Positions 1-8,161 of a stretch of 32,837 nucleotides of DNA are shown here, piece by piece. The DNA is from a virus. Within the stretch, counting starts at the first letter, position 1; every line of letters begins with the position of its first letter. Both the position numbers and the translations under genes were made by a program. Where the stretch lies: the IMG/VR virus record IMGVR_UViG_3300021197_000326, positions 1 through 32,837 of that record. One strand, given 5' to 3'. Under the pieces are notes generated by a model. That model searched no databases and had not been told where the DNA came from. It saw only the letters and a program-made list of their open reading frames with translations.

Positions 1-2
1 AC

Positions 3-974
3 GGTAATGACTTAAACAATGTTGCAGCACTAAAGAACACTAGTGGTCAGGACATAGTAGCTCTTACGCTGGGCTATATGAACACAGCAAACACTGCAGC
101 TACCAACGCAGGTAACTCAGCTACAGCAGCAGCGTCTAGTCAGACTGCGGCAGCATCGAGTCAAACAGCAGCAGCATCTAGTGCAACAGGGGCAGCATCA
201 TCAGCAACTGCAGCAGCAACATCACTTGACACATTTGATGATAGGTTCTTAGGTGCAAAGAGCAGCAACCCATCAGTAGATAACGATGGTGATTCTTTAG
301 CTACAGGTGCTCTCTACTTTAATACTGGAGACAATAACATGAGGGTCTACAATGGCTCTGCATGGCAAGCTGTAGGTCCAACCTCAACAGAACAAACTAA
401 CATCAATACAGTAGCTGGTATATCATCTGATATTACTACAGTGGCTGGTGTATCATCAGCAGTTACTACTACCTCACAAAGCGTAGCTATTCTAAACTCT
501 TTGAACGCTATGTTTACAGCAGCGGAGAACATAGCTGTAACTGTAGTCAACGATGGTGGTACAAACAAGTTTGCATTTAACGGTGCAACAGCACCAGCTA
601 TAACTCTTGTTAAAGGATTTACTTATACCTTTGATGTCAGTGCTTCTTCTGTATCTGGACATCCATTGGCATTTAAAGACTCTGGTGGTAGTGCTTACAC
701 CACAGGAGTTACAGTAAACGGTACTGCTGGTAGTGCAGGAGCAAACGTAGTTATAGTTGTTCCTACAACTGGTACAATGCCAGCTAGGTATTACTGTACA
801 ACACACGGTAATGCTATGGGTAATACTATTGCTACTCAAACTAACGACATAGGAACAGTAGCAGACTCAACAACAATATCAAATATACAAACAGTAGTAA
901 ACAATCTTTCAACAATATCAGCAAAGGCAACAGTAGACGAGGCGACTGCGCTTGCGATTGCCCTCGGTGGCTAG
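3..974 (+). CDS. Tail fibre protein, 5'-truncated, with cupredoxin-like domain
   Basis: The frame is open from the window edge, so the N-terminus is missing; an internal ATG at 78 is in frame but need not be the start. Counting residues from that ATG, residues 16-50 are five near-perfect Ala/Ser/Thr heptads. Next comes a segment typical of marine phage fibres (DDRFLGAKSSNPSVDNDGD, then GALYFNTGDNNMRVYNGSAW). Residues about 150-253 look like a cupredoxin: a beta-rich stretch with GHPLAF (His195) and YYCTTHGNAMG (Cys240, His243, Met247), the ligand order of type 1 copper sites. The C-terminus is Thr/Ala/Asn-rich and probably fibrous. It is followed by more tail-fibre genes on the same strand. 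A fibre role is well supported; the cupredoxin fold is inferred from motif order, and copper binding is unproven. Confidence 0.8.
   Translation, partial: GNDLNNVAALKNTSGQDIVALTLGYMNTANTAATNAGNSATAAASSQTAAASSQTAAASSATGAASSATAAATSLDTFDDRFLGAKSSNPSVDNDGDSLATGALYFNTGDNNMRVYNGSAWQAVGPTSTEQTNINTVAGISSDITTVAGVSSAVTTTSQSVAILNSLNAMFTAAENIAVTVVNDGGTNKFAFNGATAPAITLVKGFTYTFDVSASSVSGHPLAFKDSGGSAYTTGVTVNGTAGSAGANVVIVVPTTGTMPARYYCTTHGNAMGNTIATQTNDIGTVADSTTISNIQTVVNNLSTISAKATVDEATALAIALGG
123..227 (+). repeat. Five tandem 21-bp coding repeats (TAAASSQ heptads)
   Basis: Five consecutive 21-bp units encode TAAASSQ, TAAASSQ, TAAASSA, TGAASSA and TAAATSL. They lie in frame inside the fibre gene. Such low-complexity Ala/Ser/Thr heptads are common in the shafts of marine phage fibres, and slippage here would change fibre length by whole heptads. 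Confidence 0.85.
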
Positions 975-983
975 GAGAATAGA

Positions 984-1337
984 ATGGCAAATACATTTAA
1001 ACTTATTACAAGGGATGTAGCTCCAGCCACTGCTGGTACGCCCGAAACAATCTACACTGTCCAGACAGGTAGTACGATAGTTATGTTGGGAATGACATTA
1101 GCTAACGTTCACACCTCTCAGGTTACAGCAAGTGTAACGCTTGTTACTACAACAACGCAAACTGGGCAGACTCAGAACACTACAGCACACTTGATTAAAG
1201 ATGTCAGCATCCCTGCAGGAAGTACGCTTTCCCCACTTGAAGGAAAGATAAACATGAACGTAGGTGATATTATAAAAGTGGACTGTTCAGTAGCAGATAA
1301 ACTTTCTGTCACAATGAGCTATATGGAGATAACCTAG
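984..1337 (+). CDS. Small beta-rich virion/tail structural protein
   Basis: 117 residues. AGGAG sits just upstream of the ATG and overlaps the stop of the preceding fibre gene. The protein is Thr/Val-rich with alternating polar and hydrophobic residues (ASVTLVTTTTQTG, GDIIKVDCSVADKLSVTMSY), as expected for an all-beta particle protein. Its start (MANTFKLITRDVAPATAG) resembles small structural proteins often found beside fibre genes of marine podoviruses and cyanophages. No enzyme motif, signal peptide or membrane segment is visible. It lies between two fibre genes, so a role in the fibre or its attachment is likely. The exact function is not recognised. Confidence 0.6.
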   Translation: MANTFKLITRDVAPATAGTPETIYTVQTGSTIVMLGMTLANVHTSQVTASVTLVTTTTQTGQTQNTTAHLIKDVSIPAGSTLSPLEGKINMNVGDIIKVDCSVADKLSVTMSYMEIT

Positions 1338-2720
1338 ATGGGTGGATACATAGGAGCAAGGGCTGGAACTATTAGTGCTACGGTTGCTAACGTCCAAGAC
1401 GTAACAGCTACTGACACTACGCCAGAAGTTACTATAGTCAACACAACGCACGAAGACACTGACGGTGGGCGTGAAGGTAAGGTTATCTTCAAAGGTCAAC
1501 AAAGTGGCGGTGAGGAAACTACATTAGCTGAAATTCAAGGTAGCCATGACGGTACGGCTGACGATGAAAAAGGCGATCTGATATTCAAGACTAATGATGG
1601 GTCAGATGGTGCTAGTCCAACAGAGAGACTACGCATAGATTCTGATGGGTCAATCCTTACAGAAACCTTAGGCACAGACAATTTAAAATTTGGTGAAGGT
1701 GCTGGTGTATCTATTGCCTCTGGCGGTAATGAAAATATTTTAATTGGTAAAGATGCAGGAACAGCATTAAATACTGGCGACAGAAATGTTGCTATAGGTC
1801 ATTCTGCTTTTGATAGTGCTACAGACCAAACTAACAATGTTGCTGTAGGTTATAAAGCTTTATCTGCGGTAACTGCTTCTGGTGATACTCTATGCACTGC
1901 TGTCGGTTCTAAAGCATTAGAGTCATTAAGTGCTGGATACCATAACACTGCTGTTGGATATGGTTCACAGGATGCTATGACTCATGGAATTAGAAATGTG
2001 TCTTTGGGTAGAGATAGTCTTGGCGCAGATACTAAGGGAAATCGTAGTGTGGCTGTTGGTGATGAGGCATTAGCTGCTCAAAATTTTACATCAGATACAA
2101 ATGCTTTTAATACTGCCGTTGGTCCATCTGCTGGCTCACTAATTACTACTGGAACTAAGAATACTATTATTGGTGGTTTTGATGGTAATCAGCATGGTTG
2201 GGATATGCGTACTAAAAATAGTGCCTCTGTTATTTCAGACGGTGATGGCGAATTACACGGTCTGTTTTACGGCACTAGTAATATGACTATGAATTTATCA
2301 AGAATAACAACAGATGGTTATAATTATCATCCGAGCATTATTGCCGCTGCTGAAAATTTAAGTGACGATTTTACTACAGGAGCAGGTATAGCAACGATTG
2401 TTACTGCTGATTATGTTTTACCTTATCAAAAACAAGTAATGCTTCAAGTAACAGTGGGAAGTAGTGCTTATTGGAACCATGTTACTTATATGCTTACTTG
2501 TAATTACAGCAATGTTTCTGCCACCACTTTGGCTAGTGTATTTAATGGAAATGGAAATCTTACAATTAACAGCATTGGAATATCTTTTTCTGGTGCTTAC
2601 AATTCTAGAAAAGTGGCTATTACTTTAACGCCCAGCAGTGGAACAGCGTTGTCTAATTTTCAGGTTTATCTGCATTATGCGCCATCAACTTATAATGGCA
2701 GTAGCGATTTATATGTATAA
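1338..2720 (+). CDS. Tail fibre with YadA-head-like repeats
   Basis: 460 residues, starting directly after the preceding stop. The N-terminus opens with MGGYIGARAG, a short module echoed at 2994 (MAGYVGNVPV), and continues with segments common in marine fibres (GKVIFKG, ERLRIDSDGS). Residues about 128-280 carry repeated N-x-A/V-x-G/IG-x-x-A motifs (NILIGKDAG, NVAIGHSAF, NVAVGYKAL, NTAVGYGSQ, NVSLGRDSL, SVAVGDEAL, NTAVGPSAG, NTIIGG), the pattern of left-handed beta-roll heads of YadA-type trimeric adhesins. The last 120 residues form a separate Ser/Thr/Tyr-rich region, probably the distal receptor-binding part. From roughly 1680 on the DNA looks richer in T-ending codons than the upstream module. 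It probably forms a trimeric, surface-exposed adhesin. Confidence 0.8.
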   Translation: MGGYIGARAGTISATVANVQDVTATDTTPEVTIVNTTHEDTDGGREGKVIFKGQQSGGEETTLAEIQGSHDGTADDEKGDLIFKTNDGSDGASPTERLRIDSDGSILTETLGTDNLKFGEGAGVSIASGGNENILIGKDAGTALNTGDRNVAIGHSAFDSATDQTNNVAVGYKALSAVTASGDTLCTAVGSKALESLSAGYHNTAVGYGSQDAMTHGIRNVSLGRDSLGADTKGNRSVAVGDEALAAQNFTSDTNAFNTAVGPSAGSLITTGTKNTIIGGFDGNQHGWDMRTKNSASVISDGDGELHGLFYGTSNMTMNLSRITTDGYNYHPSIIAAAENLSDDFTTGAGIATIVTADYVLPYQKQVMLQVTVGSSAYWNHVTYMLTCNYSNVSATTLASVFNGNGNLTINSIGISFSGAYNSRKVAITLTPSSGTALSNFQVYLHYAPSTYNGSSDLYV

Positions 2721-2731
2721 GGAATATTAAT

Positions 2732-2983
2732 ATGGCTTCTTGGACTAAAATAAAACGTGAAGTTGACTTTGATGAAGTTACTAAAATAACAGCAACAAGG
2801 TCTGAAACTATTGATGGTGTAGTTTACAGTCAAACTCTTGATTGGCTTGTTCCTGAAGATGATCAGGAAACAATTTATTCTTACACGAAAGAACAAACAG
2901 CAACTTACTTAGACAGTAAAATGCCTATTGCTAGCATTGATCAATCTTTTATTGATTCAGCAGCCGTAGGCCTACCAGAATAA
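2732..2983 (+). CDS. Small acidic tail-module protein, unknown
   Basis: 83 residues with an AAGGA ribosome site. The sequence begins MASWTKIKREVDFDEVTKI and is acidic, with a predicted mix of strands (EVTKITATRSETIDGVVYSQTLDWLVPEDD) and a C-terminal helix. There is no signal peptide or membrane segment. I do not recognise the family. It sits between two fibre genes that share the short M(A/G)GY(I/V)G N-terminus, so it may be a fibre chaperone or minor attachment protein, but this rests on position alone. Confidence 0.6.
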   Translation: MASWTKIKREVDFDEVTKITATRSETIDGVVYSQTLDWLVPEDDQETIYSYTKEQTATYLDSKMPIASIDQSFIDSAAVGLPE

Positions 2984-2993
2984 GGATTAAAAC

Positions 2994-3446
2994 ATGGCTG
3001 GATATGTAGGCAATGTACCTGTTCCACAGGCAACGCAAACAAGGGATTTAACAACAGCAACGGCTGGTCAAACAACATTCCCTACTGGTGGTTATACTCC
3101 TCAGTTTTTAGACGTTTATCTCAATGGAATATTGCTCGTAAACGGAACAGACTACACAGCTAGTAATGGCTCTGATGTTGTCTTAACTGTAGGTGCTACT
3201 GTTGGCGATATTCTTTCTGTCATTGCTTACACAACCTTTGAAGTCGCTAACGTATCTGGCGGTGGGATGTTTAAAGGTGACAACGGAACGGTAGGCTCTA
3301 GGGCTGGTGATATATTTCGCATTAACGAACAGATACTAAACTCTAACACAACCATTGACGCAGCAGAAAATGCTTCATGCACAGGCCCACTTACAGTGGC
3401 ATCTGGAGCAACGCTTACTGTCTCTGGCAACTTAACGGTGGTATAG
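2994..3446 (+). CDS. Short tail fibre / fibre-docking protein
   Basis: 150 residues with AAGGA upstream. It starts MAGYVGNVPVPQATQTRDLT, like the start of the 1338 gene. Residues about 30-85 form the module QFLDVYLNGILLVNGTDYT...VGDILSVIAY, which is widespread in tail fibres of marine T7-like phages. The C-terminus is a run of beta-solenoid-like repeats (GPLTVASGATLTVSGNLTVV) that stops abruptly at the last strand. The next adhesin gene begins one base after the stop codon. It may be a stub whose former C-terminal head has been exchanged for the separately encoded adhesins downstream, or a complete short fibre. Tail role well supported; details inferred. Confidence 0.7.
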   Translation: MAGYVGNVPVPQATQTRDLTTATAGQTTFPTGGYTPQFLDVYLNGILLVNGTDYTASNGSDVVLTVGATVGDILSVIAYTTFEVANVSGGGMFKGDNGTVGSRAGDIFRINEQILNSNTTIDAAENASCTGPLTVASGATLTVSGNLTVV

Positions 3447-3447
3447 A

Positions 3448-3963
3448 ATGAGTACACTCACGGTTCAAACACTGCAAGCTCCTACAAGTGGGGCTAATGC
3501 AAATACAGTTTTAATTCCTAGCGGTCAAGAACTTCATTCTGCTGGTCATGTTATTCAAGTTGTTCAAGGTGTTTACACTAATGCTAATTCTACAACTTCT
3601 ACAAGTCTTGTTGCTACAAGTATATCGGCAACAATTACTCCGAAATTTTCTACAAGTAAAATTCTAATATCTCTTGCAATAAATGGTGTGTATCACAGTA
3701 CAGAAACAGACTATGCAGTTTTTCATATATATAAAAATGCTTCAAATCATCACTCTGTATCAACTAATGTTGGACAAAACGGAGAAACACAATCTCAATC
3801 TGTTGCTCACTATTATTTAGATTCACCTAGTACAACAAGTGCAACTACATACGCTGTTTATCAACGAAGTGGTAGTGGAGGAACTATAGGTCATAATAAT
3901 TACGGTATAGGTGGAGATGGAAGCACTAGAAGCACTATTATTTTAACGGAGATAGCAGCATGA
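3448..3963 (+). CDS. Modular tail adhesin, copy 1
   Basis: 171 residues; ATG begins one base after the upstream stop. It starts MSTLTVQTLQ, the short amphipathic module seen again at 3960 (MSILKVDTLQ) and 4418 (MSSVLKVDAIQ). Next comes LHSAGHVIQVVQG, nearly identical to LSAGHVVQVVQG in the following gene. The C-terminal about 120 residues form a Ser/Thr/Asn-rich all-beta head (ISATITPKFSTSKILISLAING, TTSATTYAVYQRSG). Proteins of this type occur as small tail-fibre proteins in many marine phages. The stop overlaps the next start as ATGA, so translation is probably coupled. Probably receptor binding at the tail tip. Confidence 0.7.
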   Translation: MSTLTVQTLQAPTSGANANTVLIPSGQELHSAGHVIQVVQGVYTNANSTTSTSLVATSISATITPKFSTSKILISLAINGVYHSTETDYAVFHIYKNASNHHSVSTNVGQNGETQSQSVAHYYLDSPSTTSATTYAVYQRSGSGGTIGHNNYGIGGDGSTRSTIILTEIAA

Positions 3964-4046
3964 GCATACTCAAGGTCGATACTCTCCAGCCAGCTACAGC
4001 AGCAAGGGTTCTATCTGCTGGTCATGTGGTGCAAGTTGTACAAGGA
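3538..4046 (+). repeat. Dispersed 33-bp direct repeat in adjacent adhesin genes
   Basis: Bases 3538-3570 and 4014-4046 match at 28 of 33 positions by eye, including an identical 14-base start (TCTGCTGGTCATGT), and encode SAGHV(I/V)QVVQG in both genes. They mark the junction between the shared N-terminal module and the divergent head, so they could support duplication or head swapping by recombination. Confidence 0.7.
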
Positions 4047-4421
4047 ACATCTACCGCCAGTGCTACTTTAGGTTCTAACAATACTCATGTAGACAGTGGA
4101 CTAACAGCAACAATTACACCTACATCTGCAACAAGTAAGGTTTTAGTTTTGCATTCCTCTTCTATTGCTTATCAAGGAAATGCTGACCATATTTTAAGAT
4201 TAGTTAGAGGTAGTACAGTTGTTTATCAACTTAACTTTTATAATAATGGTAGTACTCTTGGTAATATGACTGGTGCTTTTCAATTTTTTGATAGTCCAGC
4301 AACCACCAGTGCTACTACTTACAAAACTACAAACTACAAAAACGCTGGCGAATTGTATTATAATTATAACAATGAAGTTTCAACCACCTCAACACTTACG
4401 CTTATGGAGGTAGCCCAATGA
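3960..4421 (+). CDS. Modular tail adhesin, copy 2
   Basis: 153 residues, overlapping the stop of copy 1 by four bases (ATGA). The N-terminus MSILKVDTLQ and the segment LSAGHVVQVVQG are clearly paralogous to copy 1. The head keeps the same outline (GLTATITPTSATSKVLVLHSS, SPATTSATTYKTTNYKN, STLTLMEVAQ) but has diverged strongly between these anchors. The ending TLTLMEVAQ parallels STIILTEIAA of copy 1. A tandem duplication followed by divergence of the exposed loops is the simplest reading. Probably a receptor-binding subunit, perhaps in the same complex as its neighbours. Confidence 0.7.
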   Translation: MSILKVDTLQPATAARVLSAGHVVQVVQGTSTASATLGSNNTHVDSGLTATITPTSATSKVLVLHSSSIAYQGNADHILRLVRGSTVVYQLNFYNNGSTLGNMTGAFQFFDSPATTSATTYKTTNYKNAGELYYNYNNEVSTTSTLTLMEVAQ

Positions 4422-4900
4422 GTTCAGTATTAAAAGTAGATGCAATACAGAATACGGCTGGTACTAGTGCGCTGACTATAGATAGTGGTGGAAGAATATT
4501 GAAGCCAACAACCCCTCATTTTCATGTAACAAAAACGGATGGTCATGTAGGAGCAAACGCAACTATCGTTTGGAATAATAAAGTTAGAGATACTGAAACG
4601 GCGTATAATACTTCCACAGGACAATATACAATTCCATCTGGGTTAACTGGTCTTTGGTGGTTTGGTATTTGTGGTATGTCGTATAATACTGGTTATATAG
4701 AACTTTCTATACAAGTGAATAGCACTATTACTTTTAGTGCTAGAAACGAGTCAGCCAACAATGCAAAAAGCTGTGCTATAATGACTGTTGGGTATTATGC
4801 CACAGCAGGAGATGTAATATCTATTCATACACAAGGGTCATCAAGTTTGTACGGCACAGGAAGTCCATACGCTTATTGGACAGGATACTTTATAGGATAG
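4418..4900 (+). CDS. Modular tail adhesin with C1q-like knob
   Basis: 160 residues, overlapping the upstream stop by four bases (ATGA). It begins MSSVLKVDAIQNTAGTSALTI, sharing the docking module of the two preceding genes. The rest, from about residue 34, resembles the C1q/TNF-like jelly roll: TAYNTSTGQYTIPSGLTGLWWF matches the family pattern N-x-x-T-G-x-(F/Y)-x-x-P-x-x-G-x-(Y/W)-x-F, AGDVISIHTQG matches the GD-x-(V/I) strand, and the closing SPYAYWTGYFIG matches the final S-x-F-x-G-x-L strand. C1q-like knobs are trimeric and occur at the tips of phage fibres and bacterial adhesins. The docking module is thus fused here to a different head fold. Confidence 0.7.
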   Translation: MSSVLKVDAIQNTAGTSALTIDSGGRILKPTTPHFHVTKTDGHVGANATIVWNNKVRDTETAYNTSTGQYTIPSGLTGLWWFGICGMSYNTGYIELSIQVNSTITFSARNESANNAKSCAIMTVGYYATAGDVISIHTQGSSSLYGTGSPYAYWTGYFIG

Positions 4901-4905
4901 GAAAA

Positions 4906-5298
4906 ATGACAAATATAGCAACAGCACTAAACGAACTAGGCGTAACAGAATGGGTGTTACGTGGAGAGCCAACCTCTGAAGAAGAGTTTGCTGAGATGTA
5001 CCGCAAGGTAACAGGCGCAGATAGCAACGGCTCTGCAATAGAAAGCAACAATCCAGACGATTGGGGTACAACTTGGTCAGCGGTATCAGCTAAGAAAACT
5101 GAGCTAGTTAACGCCAAGCCAATGGCTGACCTTCGGGCAGAGCGTGACAGGCGATTAGCTGAGACAGATTGGATGGCTGGTTCTGATGTAACTCTAGCAG
5201 ACGCTTGGAAGACCTATCGTCAGGCACTTAGGGATGCCCCAGCGCAGGATGGGGTCACTGGATTAGATAACGTAACTTGGCCCACAAAGCCATCGTGA
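4906..5298 (+). CDS. Phage tail assembly chaperone-like protein (Phage_tail_APC type)
   Basis: 130 residues from the ATG at 4906, just after GGAAAA and beyond the upstream stop; an in-frame ATG at 4876 would overlap the C1q-like gene and lacks a better ribosome site. The C-terminal third contains LRAERDRRLAETDWMAGSD, then AWKTYRQALRDAPAQ and WPTKPS, the signature of the tail-assembly-chaperone family found beside fibre genes in many tailed phages (R-D-x-x-L-x-x-T-D-W ... YRQALRD-x-P ... WP-x-x-P). The N-terminus (MTNIATALNELGVTEWVLRG) is typical of marine versions. In these phages it probably helps fold or attach fibres. The family call is confident; the biochemical role is little known. Confidence 0.82.
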   Translation: MTNIATALNELGVTEWVLRGEPTSEEEFAEMYRKVTGADSNGSAIESNNPDDWGTTWSAVSAKKTELVNAKPMADLRAERDRRLAETDWMAGSDVTLADAWKTYRQALRDAPAQDGVTGLDNVTWPTKPS

Positions 5299-5306
5299 GG
5301 TAAAAC

Positions 5307-6425
5307 ATGAGTTTAGCAAGAGACATAGCAGACCTTGGTTCAGTAACAGCTAGGCTCGATACTGTTGGTGCTGCAAGTGGAAGCTTTGGTGTAGGCAGAA
5401 ATGTTATAGTCAATTCAGCTATGATGGTTTCGCAACGTGGAACCTCGTTTGCTAGTGTTGGCAATGTTTATACTTTAGATAGATTTTTATTTTATAAACA
5501 AAACTCTGGCGCAGCTTTTACTGTTACACAATCAAGCGTTACAGATTTAGCTGGATTTGCTAATGCGTTAAAAGTTGACTGCACAACAGCAGATACTTCT
5601 CTTGCTTCTAACGAGGAAGGATATATCCAACACAAAATTGAAGGTCAAGATTTACAGAGGTTTCAAAAAGGACACGCTACAGCTTTAGGTTTTACATTAT
5701 CTTTCTATGTTAAAACAAATAAGACTGGTGTGTATACTGTTAAAATCTTTGATAGAGATAATAGCAGAGATGTTTCTGGCTCATATACAGTAGCTGATAC
5801 AAATTGGAACAGGTACACTATTAATTTTCCTGCCGATACAACAGGTAAATTTGATGACGATAATGCTAGTTCTTTAGAAATATTTTTTAAATTATTTGCT
5901 GGGTCAGACACAACTGGTGGCACTTTAAACACTGCATGGAGAGCTAATGCAGATACTAGCGCTGCTAGTGGTCAGGTAAACTTTGCAGACAGTACAAGTA
6001 ACGATTGGGAAATTACTGGAATACAGTTAGAAACTGGAAGTGGAGCCGCCACGGACTTCGAGCATCGAAGCTTTGGGGATGAGCTTTTACGGTGCAAAAG
6101 ATATTTTGAAGTCTATTCTCCCACTGCAAGTGACAATGGAAGTATAGGGGTAATAAGGACTAGAACGAGTACTAATTCATATCAGGGATTAGTTAATTTC
6201 CTTGAAAAAAGAACGCAACCAACTTGCACCATTGATTTTACTATTATCCATAAGCCCGGCGTTTCTAAGGAATCTATTTCTTCTATTAGTGTCTCTCTTA
6301 GTAGTGGTGAAACGCAGTCTTGTACAATCAATGTCACACCATCTAGTGATAGTACTATTTCTACATACGGTTTTCTTGGAGTAAATTCTGGAACTGGTAG
6401 TTTAAAAATAGACGCAGAATTATAG
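5307..6425 (+). CDS. Tail fibre protein with carbohydrate-binding-like jelly roll
   Basis: 372 residues with GAGGT upstream. The N-terminal portion contains RNVIVNSAMMVSQRGTSFA followed by YTLDRFLF, and residues about 238-275 read ITGIQLETGSGAATDFEHRS and then LLRCKRYFE, a hallmark combination of marine phage fibre proteins. The stretch between them (GFTLSFYVKTNKTG, YTINFPADTTG, LEIFFKLFAG) looks like a beta-sandwich of carbohydrate-binding-module type. After the conserved CKRYFE segment the last 90 residues form a different, variable beta-rich tip. No glycosidase or lyase motif is visible, so binding rather than cleavage is likely. It ends the fibre module. Confidence 0.8.
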   Translation: MSLARDIADLGSVTARLDTVGAASGSFGVGRNVIVNSAMMVSQRGTSFASVGNVYTLDRFLFYKQNSGAAFTVTQSSVTDLAGFANALKVDCTTADTSLASNEEGYIQHKIEGQDLQRFQKGHATALGFTLSFYVKTNKTGVYTVKIFDRDNSRDVSGSYTVADTNWNRYTINFPADTTGKFDDDNASSLEIFFKLFAGSDTTGGTLNTAWRANADTSAASGQVNFADSTSNDWEITGIQLETGSGAATDFEHRSFGDELLRCKRYFEVYSPTASDNGSIGVIRTRTSTNSYQGLVNFLEKRTQPTCTIDFTIIHKPGVSKESISSISVSLSSGETQSCTINVTPSSDSTISTYGFLGVNSGTGSLKIDAEL

Positions 6426-6434
6426 GAAGTTGAT

Positions 6435-6626
6435 ATGAATATTGAATCTGCAAAATATCTAAGTCAAGTAATAGACTACGAGAAAAATACAAAAGAAAAT
6501 TCTATGATAGAAGTAGTTATAGATAATGAAACAATGTTTGTTCCACTAGACCCAGCAAACCGTCACTACGCAGCCATCATTGAGTGGGCAAAAGAAGATT
6601 CTAACGAGATAGCCGCAGCGGATTGA
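6435..6626 (+). CDS. Small XkdW-like tail protein
   Basis: 63 residues with AGGAAG upstream. The core VPLDPANRHYAAIIEWAKE resembles the V-P-x-D-x-x-N-x-x-Y-x-x-(Y/I)-x-x-W motif of small phage proteins near fibre genes, often labelled XkdW-like or tail assembly chaperone-like. The protein is acidic and has no membrane segment. Its TGA stop overlaps the start of the large terminase gene (TGATG), so it probably feeds translation of that gene. A small terminase subunit would normally be larger and carry a helix-turn-helix, which is not seen here. Function uncertain. Confidence 0.6.
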   Translation: MNIESAKYLSQVIDYEKNTKENSMIEVVIDNETMFVPLDPANRHYAAIIEWAKEDSNEIAAAD

Positions 6627-8161
6627 TGACACCCTTAGATCAAATCAGGATCGCTGCTGAAAGTGATCTTGTAACATTCATAAGGTTAGTAGCACCAGAG
6701 CAGGTACTAGGGCAAGCCCATGAAGATGTCTGTAACTGGTGGATAAGACCTGACTCAAAGTCACACCAACTATTACTCTTCCCTAGGGATCACGGTAAGT
6801 CAAGATTAATAGCGTTTAGAGTAGCTTGGGAGTTGACAAAGAACCCAACATTGCGTATACTGTACATATCAGCTACAGCTAACCTTGCTGAGAAACAACT
6901 AGGGTTTATCAAAGGAATACTTACATCAGAGATATACAGAAGGTATTGGCCTGATCACGTAAACTTTGATGAAGGTAAACGTACACGATGGACTAACTCA
7001 GAGATTATGTTAGACCATCCATTAAGGAAGAAAGAAAATGTTAGAGACCCTTCGATCTTTACTGGTGGACTCACTACTTCGCTTACAGGTTTACATTGTG
7101 ACATTGCTGTCCTCGATGACTGCGTGGTGTACGAAAATGCTTACACAGGTGAAGGAAGGAATAAAGTCAAAAGTCAATACTCTCTTCTCTCGTCTATTGA
7201 AGGTGCTGAAGCGAAAGAGTGGGTAGTAGGAACTAGGTATCACCCTGCTGATCTATACAACGATCTACTACAGATGACAGAGGATCAGTACAATCCAAGA
7301 GGTGATAAGATAGGTGAGGATAGTATCTACGAGATATTTGAGAAACCTGTAGAAGAACAAGGTGATGGCACAGGTGAGTTCCTTTGGCCTAGAACCCAAC
7401 GCAAAGACGGTAAGTGGTTTGGGTTTGACATGAAGATACTTGCAAAGAAGCGTGGTCAGTACCTAGACAAAGGACAGTTTAGAGCACAGTACTACAACGA
7501 TCCTACAGACCCAGACAACGTACCTGTGTCACCAGATAAGTTTCAGTATTTCGAAAGGAAACACGTAAGAGAGGACAACGGCTACCTGTTCTACAAAGAT
7601 AGTAGACTAAACGTATTTGCTGCTGTTGACTTTGCTTTTAGTTTAAACAAACGTGCTGACTATACAGCAATAGTTGTGGTAGGTGTTGATGCAGAAAACA
7701 ACGTATACGTCTTGGACATCGATAGATTCAGGACTGACAGAATATCTGACTACTTCGAAAACATACTCCATATGTCAAACAAGTGGTCATTCAGAAAGCT
7801 CAGAGCAGAAACAACAGTCGCACAAATGGCAATCGTCAAGCAACTCAAAGAACTTATCAAGCAACACGGACTAGCTATAAGTATTGATGAGTTCAGACCT
7901 AATAAGAACCAAGGTAATAAACAAGAGCGTATAGCTTCGATACTTGAGCCTCGCTATGACAACATGGGTATATGGCACTATAGAGGTGGCAATACTCAGA
8001 TACTAGAAGAAGAGTTGTCATCACGAAACCCTGCTCACGATGATGTTATAGACGCACTAGCTTCAGTCATAGACATGGCTGTCAAACCAGCTAGAGTAAT
8101 ACGTAGGAGTAGAGATAACGTGGTACAGTTTAACTCAAGATTTGGTGGAGTTTCCTTCTAA
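6626..8161 (+). CDS. terL: Terminase large subunit
   Basis: 511 residues from the ATG at 6626, which overlaps the preceding stop as TGATG; an upstream in-frame TTG at 6623 is less likely. It is the ATP-driven packaging motor and headful or terminus-cutting nuclease. The N-terminal ATPase has a Walker A-like loop PRDHGKS (53-59), a strand ILYISATANLAEKQ and a Walker B strand DIAVLDD (159-165). The C-terminal RNase H-like nuclease shows VDFAFS (Asp335), then VVVGVDAENNVYVLDIDRF, and AHDDVIDALA (Asp472/473). Length and order fit T7-like marine podovirus terminases. No convincing small subunit gene is seen next to it. The portal gene starts in the stop codon. Confidence 0.93.
   Translation: MTPLDQIRIAAESDLVTFIRLVAPEQVLGQAHEDVCNWWIRPDSKSHQLLLFPRDHGKSRLIAFRVAWELTKNPTLRILYISATANLAEKQLGFIKGILTSEIYRRYWPDHVNFDEGKRTRWTNSEIMLDHPLRKKENVRDPSIFTGGLTTSLTGLHCDIAVLDDCVVYENAYTGEGRNKVKSQYSLLSSIEGAEAKEWVVGTRYHPADLYNDLLQMTEDQYNPRGDKIGEDSIYEIFEKPVEEQGDGTGEFLWPRTQRKDGKWFGFDMKILAKKRGQYLDKGQFRAQYYNDPTDPDNVPVSPDKFQYFERKHVREDNGYLFYKDSRLNVFAAVDFAFSLNKRADYTAIVVVGVDAENNVYVLDIDRFRTDRISDYFENILHMSNKWSFRKLRAETTVAQMAIVKQLKELIKQHGLAISIDEFRPNKNQGNKQERIASILEPRYDNMGIWHYRGGNTQILEEELSSRNPAHDDVIDALASVIDMAVKPARVIRRSRDNVVQFNSRFGGVSF

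Follow-up and report, generated by a model that had tools for sequence, protein, structure and literature searches.

In plastocyanin, the first His ligand of the type 1 copper site precedes the HN-V-V-F strand, and the Cys ends a strand, with the second His and the Met lying around the next turn. The site tolerates some variation: two residues separate the second His from the Met in amicyanin, and Gln serves as the axial ligand in stellacyanin-type sites. In phage fibres, a different metal site has been reported. Both T4 gp37 and tail fibres of marine phages are reported to have HxH sites that bind iron through paired His residues of the trimer, on the fibre axis (PMC11705849). Searches of the open-licence literature turned up no account of a cupredoxin, blue copper or plastocyanin domain in phage fibres. 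Here, we describe a domain with a predicted cupredoxin fold and four putative copper ligands in the tail fibre of a marine phage, and its relatives in other phages and in bacteria.

The DNA that we analysed, referred to as the window, is a viral stretch of 32,837 nucleotides (positions 1 to 32,837 of IMG/VR record IMGVR_UViG_3300021197_000326). The tail-fibre gene lies at positions 3–974 on the + strand and matches a tail fiber PHROG at 5e-26; 323 residues of its product are seen, because the 5' end is lost at the contig start. The frame begins with an Ala-rich coil, which is followed by a FLGAKSSNP...YFNT fibre domain, coil repeats, the cupredoxin-like domain and a C-terminal coil that ends KATVDEATALAIALGG. 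The cupredoxin-like domain (525–839, + strand; 105 residues) occurs once in the window and is an insertion in the coiled shaft, about 45 residues before the C-terminus of the fibre. As noted in a preliminary description of this DNA, the motifs GHPLAF and YYCTTHGNAMG are present, at nt 657 and nt 789, respectively, and both lie in the frame 3–974 on the + strand. They supply, in order, the proposed ligands His (H46 of the domain; 660–662), Cys (C91; 795–797), His (H94; 804–806) and the axial Met (M98; 816–818), all on the + strand, so that the claim of a complete type 1 ligand set in the fibre is borne out. The spacing in the ligand loop is C-x2-H-x3-M, a small correction to that description. 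The earlier numbering (His195, Cys240, His243 and Met247) is right only when residues are counted from the internal ATG at nt 78; it does not hold for the whole protein, as the frame is open at the first base of the window. Because of this, and because L002, a relative with 91% identity in the domain, has its start (MAKRPTV...) far upstream, the true N-terminus of the fibre lies outside the window. The 323-residue fragment contains a single Cys and just two His residues, and as all three are proposed ligands, the motif is more than chance. No HxH motif, the hallmark of the T4 gp37-type iron fibres, occurs among these 323 residues.

The rest of the tail-fibre module (984–6425, + strand) consists of several fibre- or virion-like ORFs upstream of the terminase, and it holds no second cupredoxin domain. 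One of its products, a 460-residue protein encoded at 1338–2720, carries NVAIGHSAF/NTAVGYGSQ-type repeats and matches tail-spike and virion-protein PHROGs. The large terminase (6623–8161, + strand) shares 84% identity with its counterpart in Roseobacter phage CRP-5 and 80% with the one in Lentibacter phage ICBM2. The match to CRP-5 places the genome, a podovirus fragment, with the Zobellviridae/Cobavirinae roseophages (Veravirus-like). Cobaviruses carry variable tail-fibre genes between the terminase and the genome end (PMC6775973), and positions 1–6425 of the window, read as a fibre module, fit this layout. Homology to annotated fibre proteins and the position in the module both identify the protein as a phage tail fibre, as proposed earlier. 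The window also encodes a B12-dependent ribonucleotide reductase, MazG, endonuclease I, a 5'-3' exonuclease and a lysis protein with GH19 and peptidoglycan-binding parts.

The preliminary description called for structure prediction and a fold search, and both support a cupredoxin fold. The AlphaFold2 model of the domain, built from an alignment of 73 sequences (A1), has a pLDDT of 96.7 and a pTM of 0.89. In this model, His46 lies just before a strand, Cys91 is the last residue of a strand, and His94 and Met98 lie around the following turn; the predicted strand order puts the Cys-His-Met loop between the last two strands. The ligand positions on the predicted strands and loop are thus those expected for a type 1 site. 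Foldseek against the PDB returned mostly rusticyanin, plastocyanin, pseudoazurin, copper nitrite reductase and laccases, at E values of about 0.01 and all above 1e-3. The non-copper SO1698 aspartic peptidase, which came first in that list, has a beta-sandwich in common with the domain and was discounted, as the top 50 after VIA re-alignment contained only cupredoxins. The first of these 50 PDB rows was 2dv6, the N-terminal domain of the Hyphomicrobium denitrificans nitrite reductase, with an rmsd of 2.6 over 99 residues and a Z of 9.4, which exceeds the stated background (7 to 8) by a moderate margin only. For a separate model, of a divergent gp9-type cyanophage relative, 2dv6 was again the best match (Z 8.4, rmsd 2.4 over 85 residues); rusticyanins came next, and Ig domains ranked lower. 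In a viral structure library, 51 models matched at E <= 0.001, many of them from cyanophages. Matches by fold only were seen to small beta-sandwich proteins of Marseillevirus LCMAC201 and Pithovirus LCPAC302/304. From the modelled Greek-key beta-sandwich, with which the second family member agrees, we consider it very likely that the segment has a cupredoxin fold.

Sequence comparison connects the family to known copper proteins at the level of profiles. Searches with the window domain as a single sequence gave nothing significant in Pfam, NCBIfam or the PDB and did not reach known cupredoxins. The PDB matches that did appear (binary-toxin binding components at E 0.13 or worse, and antibodies) were rejected as chance. 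The domain stays below the cut-off of Pfam PF00127 (plastocyanin/azurin), which 4 of 60 relatives match with a best E of 0.0073; we take the weak Pfam matches to the At5g54830-like, rusticyanin and Copper-bind families as hints only. The At5g54830-like domain (PF25489), a possible eukaryotic relative, was weakly matched by 11 of 60 divergent members, with a best E of 1.3e-4. For profile-profile alignment, bacterial PF00127 proteins formed the comparison set; two members of this set match pseudoazurins and plastocyanins of solved structure in which the ligands are the same. Aligned by hhalign with the mixed PF00127 set, the profile of phage and cellular copies reached a probability of 86% at an E of 5e-6, and the Cys, His and Met columns coincided. 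When the short-loop subset was used, the column of the first His coincided as well. The hhalign score was 35.5, whereas none of 100 column-shuffled controls exceeded 16.0 and the reversed profile scored 12.0. Against pseudoazurins alone, the narrow domain set gave a probability of 4% and the set including cellular relatives 64%. These alignments in the ligand register support well, together with the model and its structural neighbours, the fold proposed in the preliminary description.

The preliminary description also asked whether the ligands are conserved among homologous fibres, and the four positions proved essentially invariant. All four are invariant in A1. In a wider set of 287 distinct domain copies, 280 of which were assessable, 271 have H-C-H-M, four have H-C-H-Q, the axial Met being replaced by Gln (L353, L363, L366 and L100), and the remaining five have lost two or more ligands together. 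None of the 280 has lost a His while keeping the Cys. Clustering at 60% identity left 42 representatives, which have a median pairwise identity of 33%. All four ligands are present in 33 of them, and two more have Gln; two residues separate the second His from the Met in 27 of the representatives and three in six, the window domain being of the latter kind. The conservation does not stem from the search patterns, as 76 of 77 copies had Cys, the second His and Met in a scan with patterns free of these residues. In the divergent alignment A5, whose rows were chosen for retained H, C and H, the Met is at least 90% conserved, compared with a mean column identity of 36%. The relatives have about one Cys per domain copy, whereas outside the domain Cys accounts for 0.2% of the residues in these viral frames. 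A chance resemblance in a beta-rich fibre might be suspected, given that single-domain sequence searches miss the known copper proteins. It is extremely improbable in view of the confident model, the shuffled controls and the near-invariance over 280 copies, and we consider it ruled out by the ligand conservation.

The conserved residues might instead serve folding, or hold another metal such as zinc, in a purely structural Ig-like domain, as such decoration domains are often found on phage virions. Copies without all or most of the ligands do persist, for example in cyanophage PSS2 and in a SAR86 protein. However, wherever Cys and both His are kept, the axial residue is always Met or Gln, losses are joint, the ligand order and register are those of type 1 copper proteins, and Met is rare in zinc sites. 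We therefore regard this explanation as unlikely. The copies that keep the framework and lack two or more ligands include L088 (cyanophage PSS2, frame 1, aa 1003–1091), L104 (aa 911–1008), L233 and L124. Very probably, a metal site is built of these four residues. That the domain binds copper is likely, as judged from the fold, the profile alignment in ligand register and the near-total conservation with joint loss, and copper is probably the native metal, with zinc, iron or an apo form being less probable.

The domain is not peculiar to the fibre in the window. By tblastn, it was found in 103 of 50,697 phage records, chiefly of Synechococcus and Prochlorococcus phages, but also of Pelagibacter and Methylophilales phages. 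Some isolates, such as the cyanophages S-SSM4 (of Synechococcus) and ACG-2014d, bear several copies. Searches of IMG/VR from three seeds found pattern-matching stretches that encode relatives, 441 for the first seed, at least 591 for the second and 397 for the third; the three sets may overlap. In phages, the domain is borne by tail fibres, by the gp9 connector of baseplate and fibre, and by baseplate proteins or other components of the virion. It is also found in contigs of marine bacteria (SAR86, SAR116, Neomarinimicrobiota and Akkermansiaceae), some of which may be viral, often in frames of more than 1,000 residues; these large bacterial proteins look like surface proteins. In a giant SAR116 protein (L111, L121–L126), one copy is intact, and in several others no ligand loop can be recognised. 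Two related fibres differ in this respect: in Lentibacter phage ICBM2, the N-terminus and the fibre domain are shared and the cupredoxin domain is absent, and in Pelagibacter phage Baldr, the domain lies further along, with all ligands present. The domain is thus shuffled between fibre proteins. It is a mobile module that is widespread in tail and baseplate proteins of marine phages.

What the copper site would do is a separate question, on which the distribution also bears. The site could be redox-active, exchanging electrons with a redox protein of the host surface or quenching reactive oxygen at the virion surface. Type 1 sites of plastocyanin, pseudoazurin and rusticyanin carry electrons, and stellacyanin-like Gln variants occur in the family. 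Nevertheless, no redox partner gene was found within the window, and the hosts of the phages that carry the domain (cyanobacteria, SAR11 and methylotrophs) are very different; with so wide an occurrence in phages and bacteria, a role tied to a single redox partner of one host becomes less likely. Redox activity is thus unlikely, and electron transfer to a redox partner the less likely role. Alternatively, the fibre might offer its copper site to, or bridge it with, an outer-membrane copper-uptake or copper-binding receptor of the host, as a copper "Trojan horse". An analogous Ferrojan-horse proposal has been made for the HxH iron sites of marine phage tail fibres (PMC11705849), the module is present in host-contact proteins of many marine phages, and the conservation of the site exceeds what a plain decoration domain needs. 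Against this, the domain is also found away from the receptor tip, in the gp9 connector and the baseplate, and in large bacterial proteins, and a buried type 1 site would be a poor handle for a receptor. We consider docking of this kind quite unlikely.

Because the domain occurs in the connector, the baseplate, fibre shafts and large bacterial proteins, we favour a general metal-locked display module over a receptor tip or an electron carrier. Our overall reading, which we think is probably correct, is that the domain is a cupredoxin-fold fibre module with an H-C-H-M type 1 ligand set, locked by copper, with a structural or adhesive role. Taken on its own, the preference for such a role over a redox one is evenly balanced. 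Each fibre chain would bind one copper ion at this domain, and a trimeric fibre would show three copper domains near its distal part. The main effect of copper might be to lock, and so stabilise, a beta-sandwich module for decoration or adhesion that is exposed to seawater, and the site might perhaps add metal-dependent stickiness toward the host surface.

The fold itself is old, and what is new is that it is a common part of marine phage tails, which was apparently overlooked. If copper occupies these sites, a class of metalloproteins would be part of the virions of very common marine phages, and phages that bear the domain would join the iron-binding fibres among the metal ligands of seawater. 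Phage infectivity could then hinge on copper supply or chelation, and many domains now called "tail fiber, unknown" would gain a testable biochemical property. A bolder view, which we consider less likely than not, is that cyanophages, pelagiphages, methylophages and roseophages bear true blue-copper virion proteins, so that their particles form a copper pool in seawater and copper-loaded fibres contact the host.

The domain can be compared with three known groups of proteins. Phage tail proteins of PHROG 677, 30742 and 693 already contain it, unrecognised; their annotation goes no further than tail fibre or gp9 baseplate-fibre connector and mentions neither a metal nor a cupredoxin. With the iron-binding HxH fibres of T4 gp37 and marine phages (PMC11705849), it shares a metal, predicted in our case, at a fibre protein that contacts the host. 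It differs from them in being self-contained, with Cys, His and Met supplied by each chain and without HxH. With the type 1 cupredoxins (the 2dv6 domain, rusticyanin, plastocyanin, pseudoazurin and amicyanin), it shares the predicted fold, the ligand order His...Cys-x2-His-x(2-4)-Met, the ligand positions relative to the strands and the occasional Gln for Met. It differs from them in lying below recognition by PF00127, in its own conserved framework of GHP and Y-x-F-D and, in the subfamily of the window fibre, in the three residues between His and Met. Whereas the type 1 cupredoxins are electron carriers of the periplasm or the thylakoid, this domain is built into a phage fibre.
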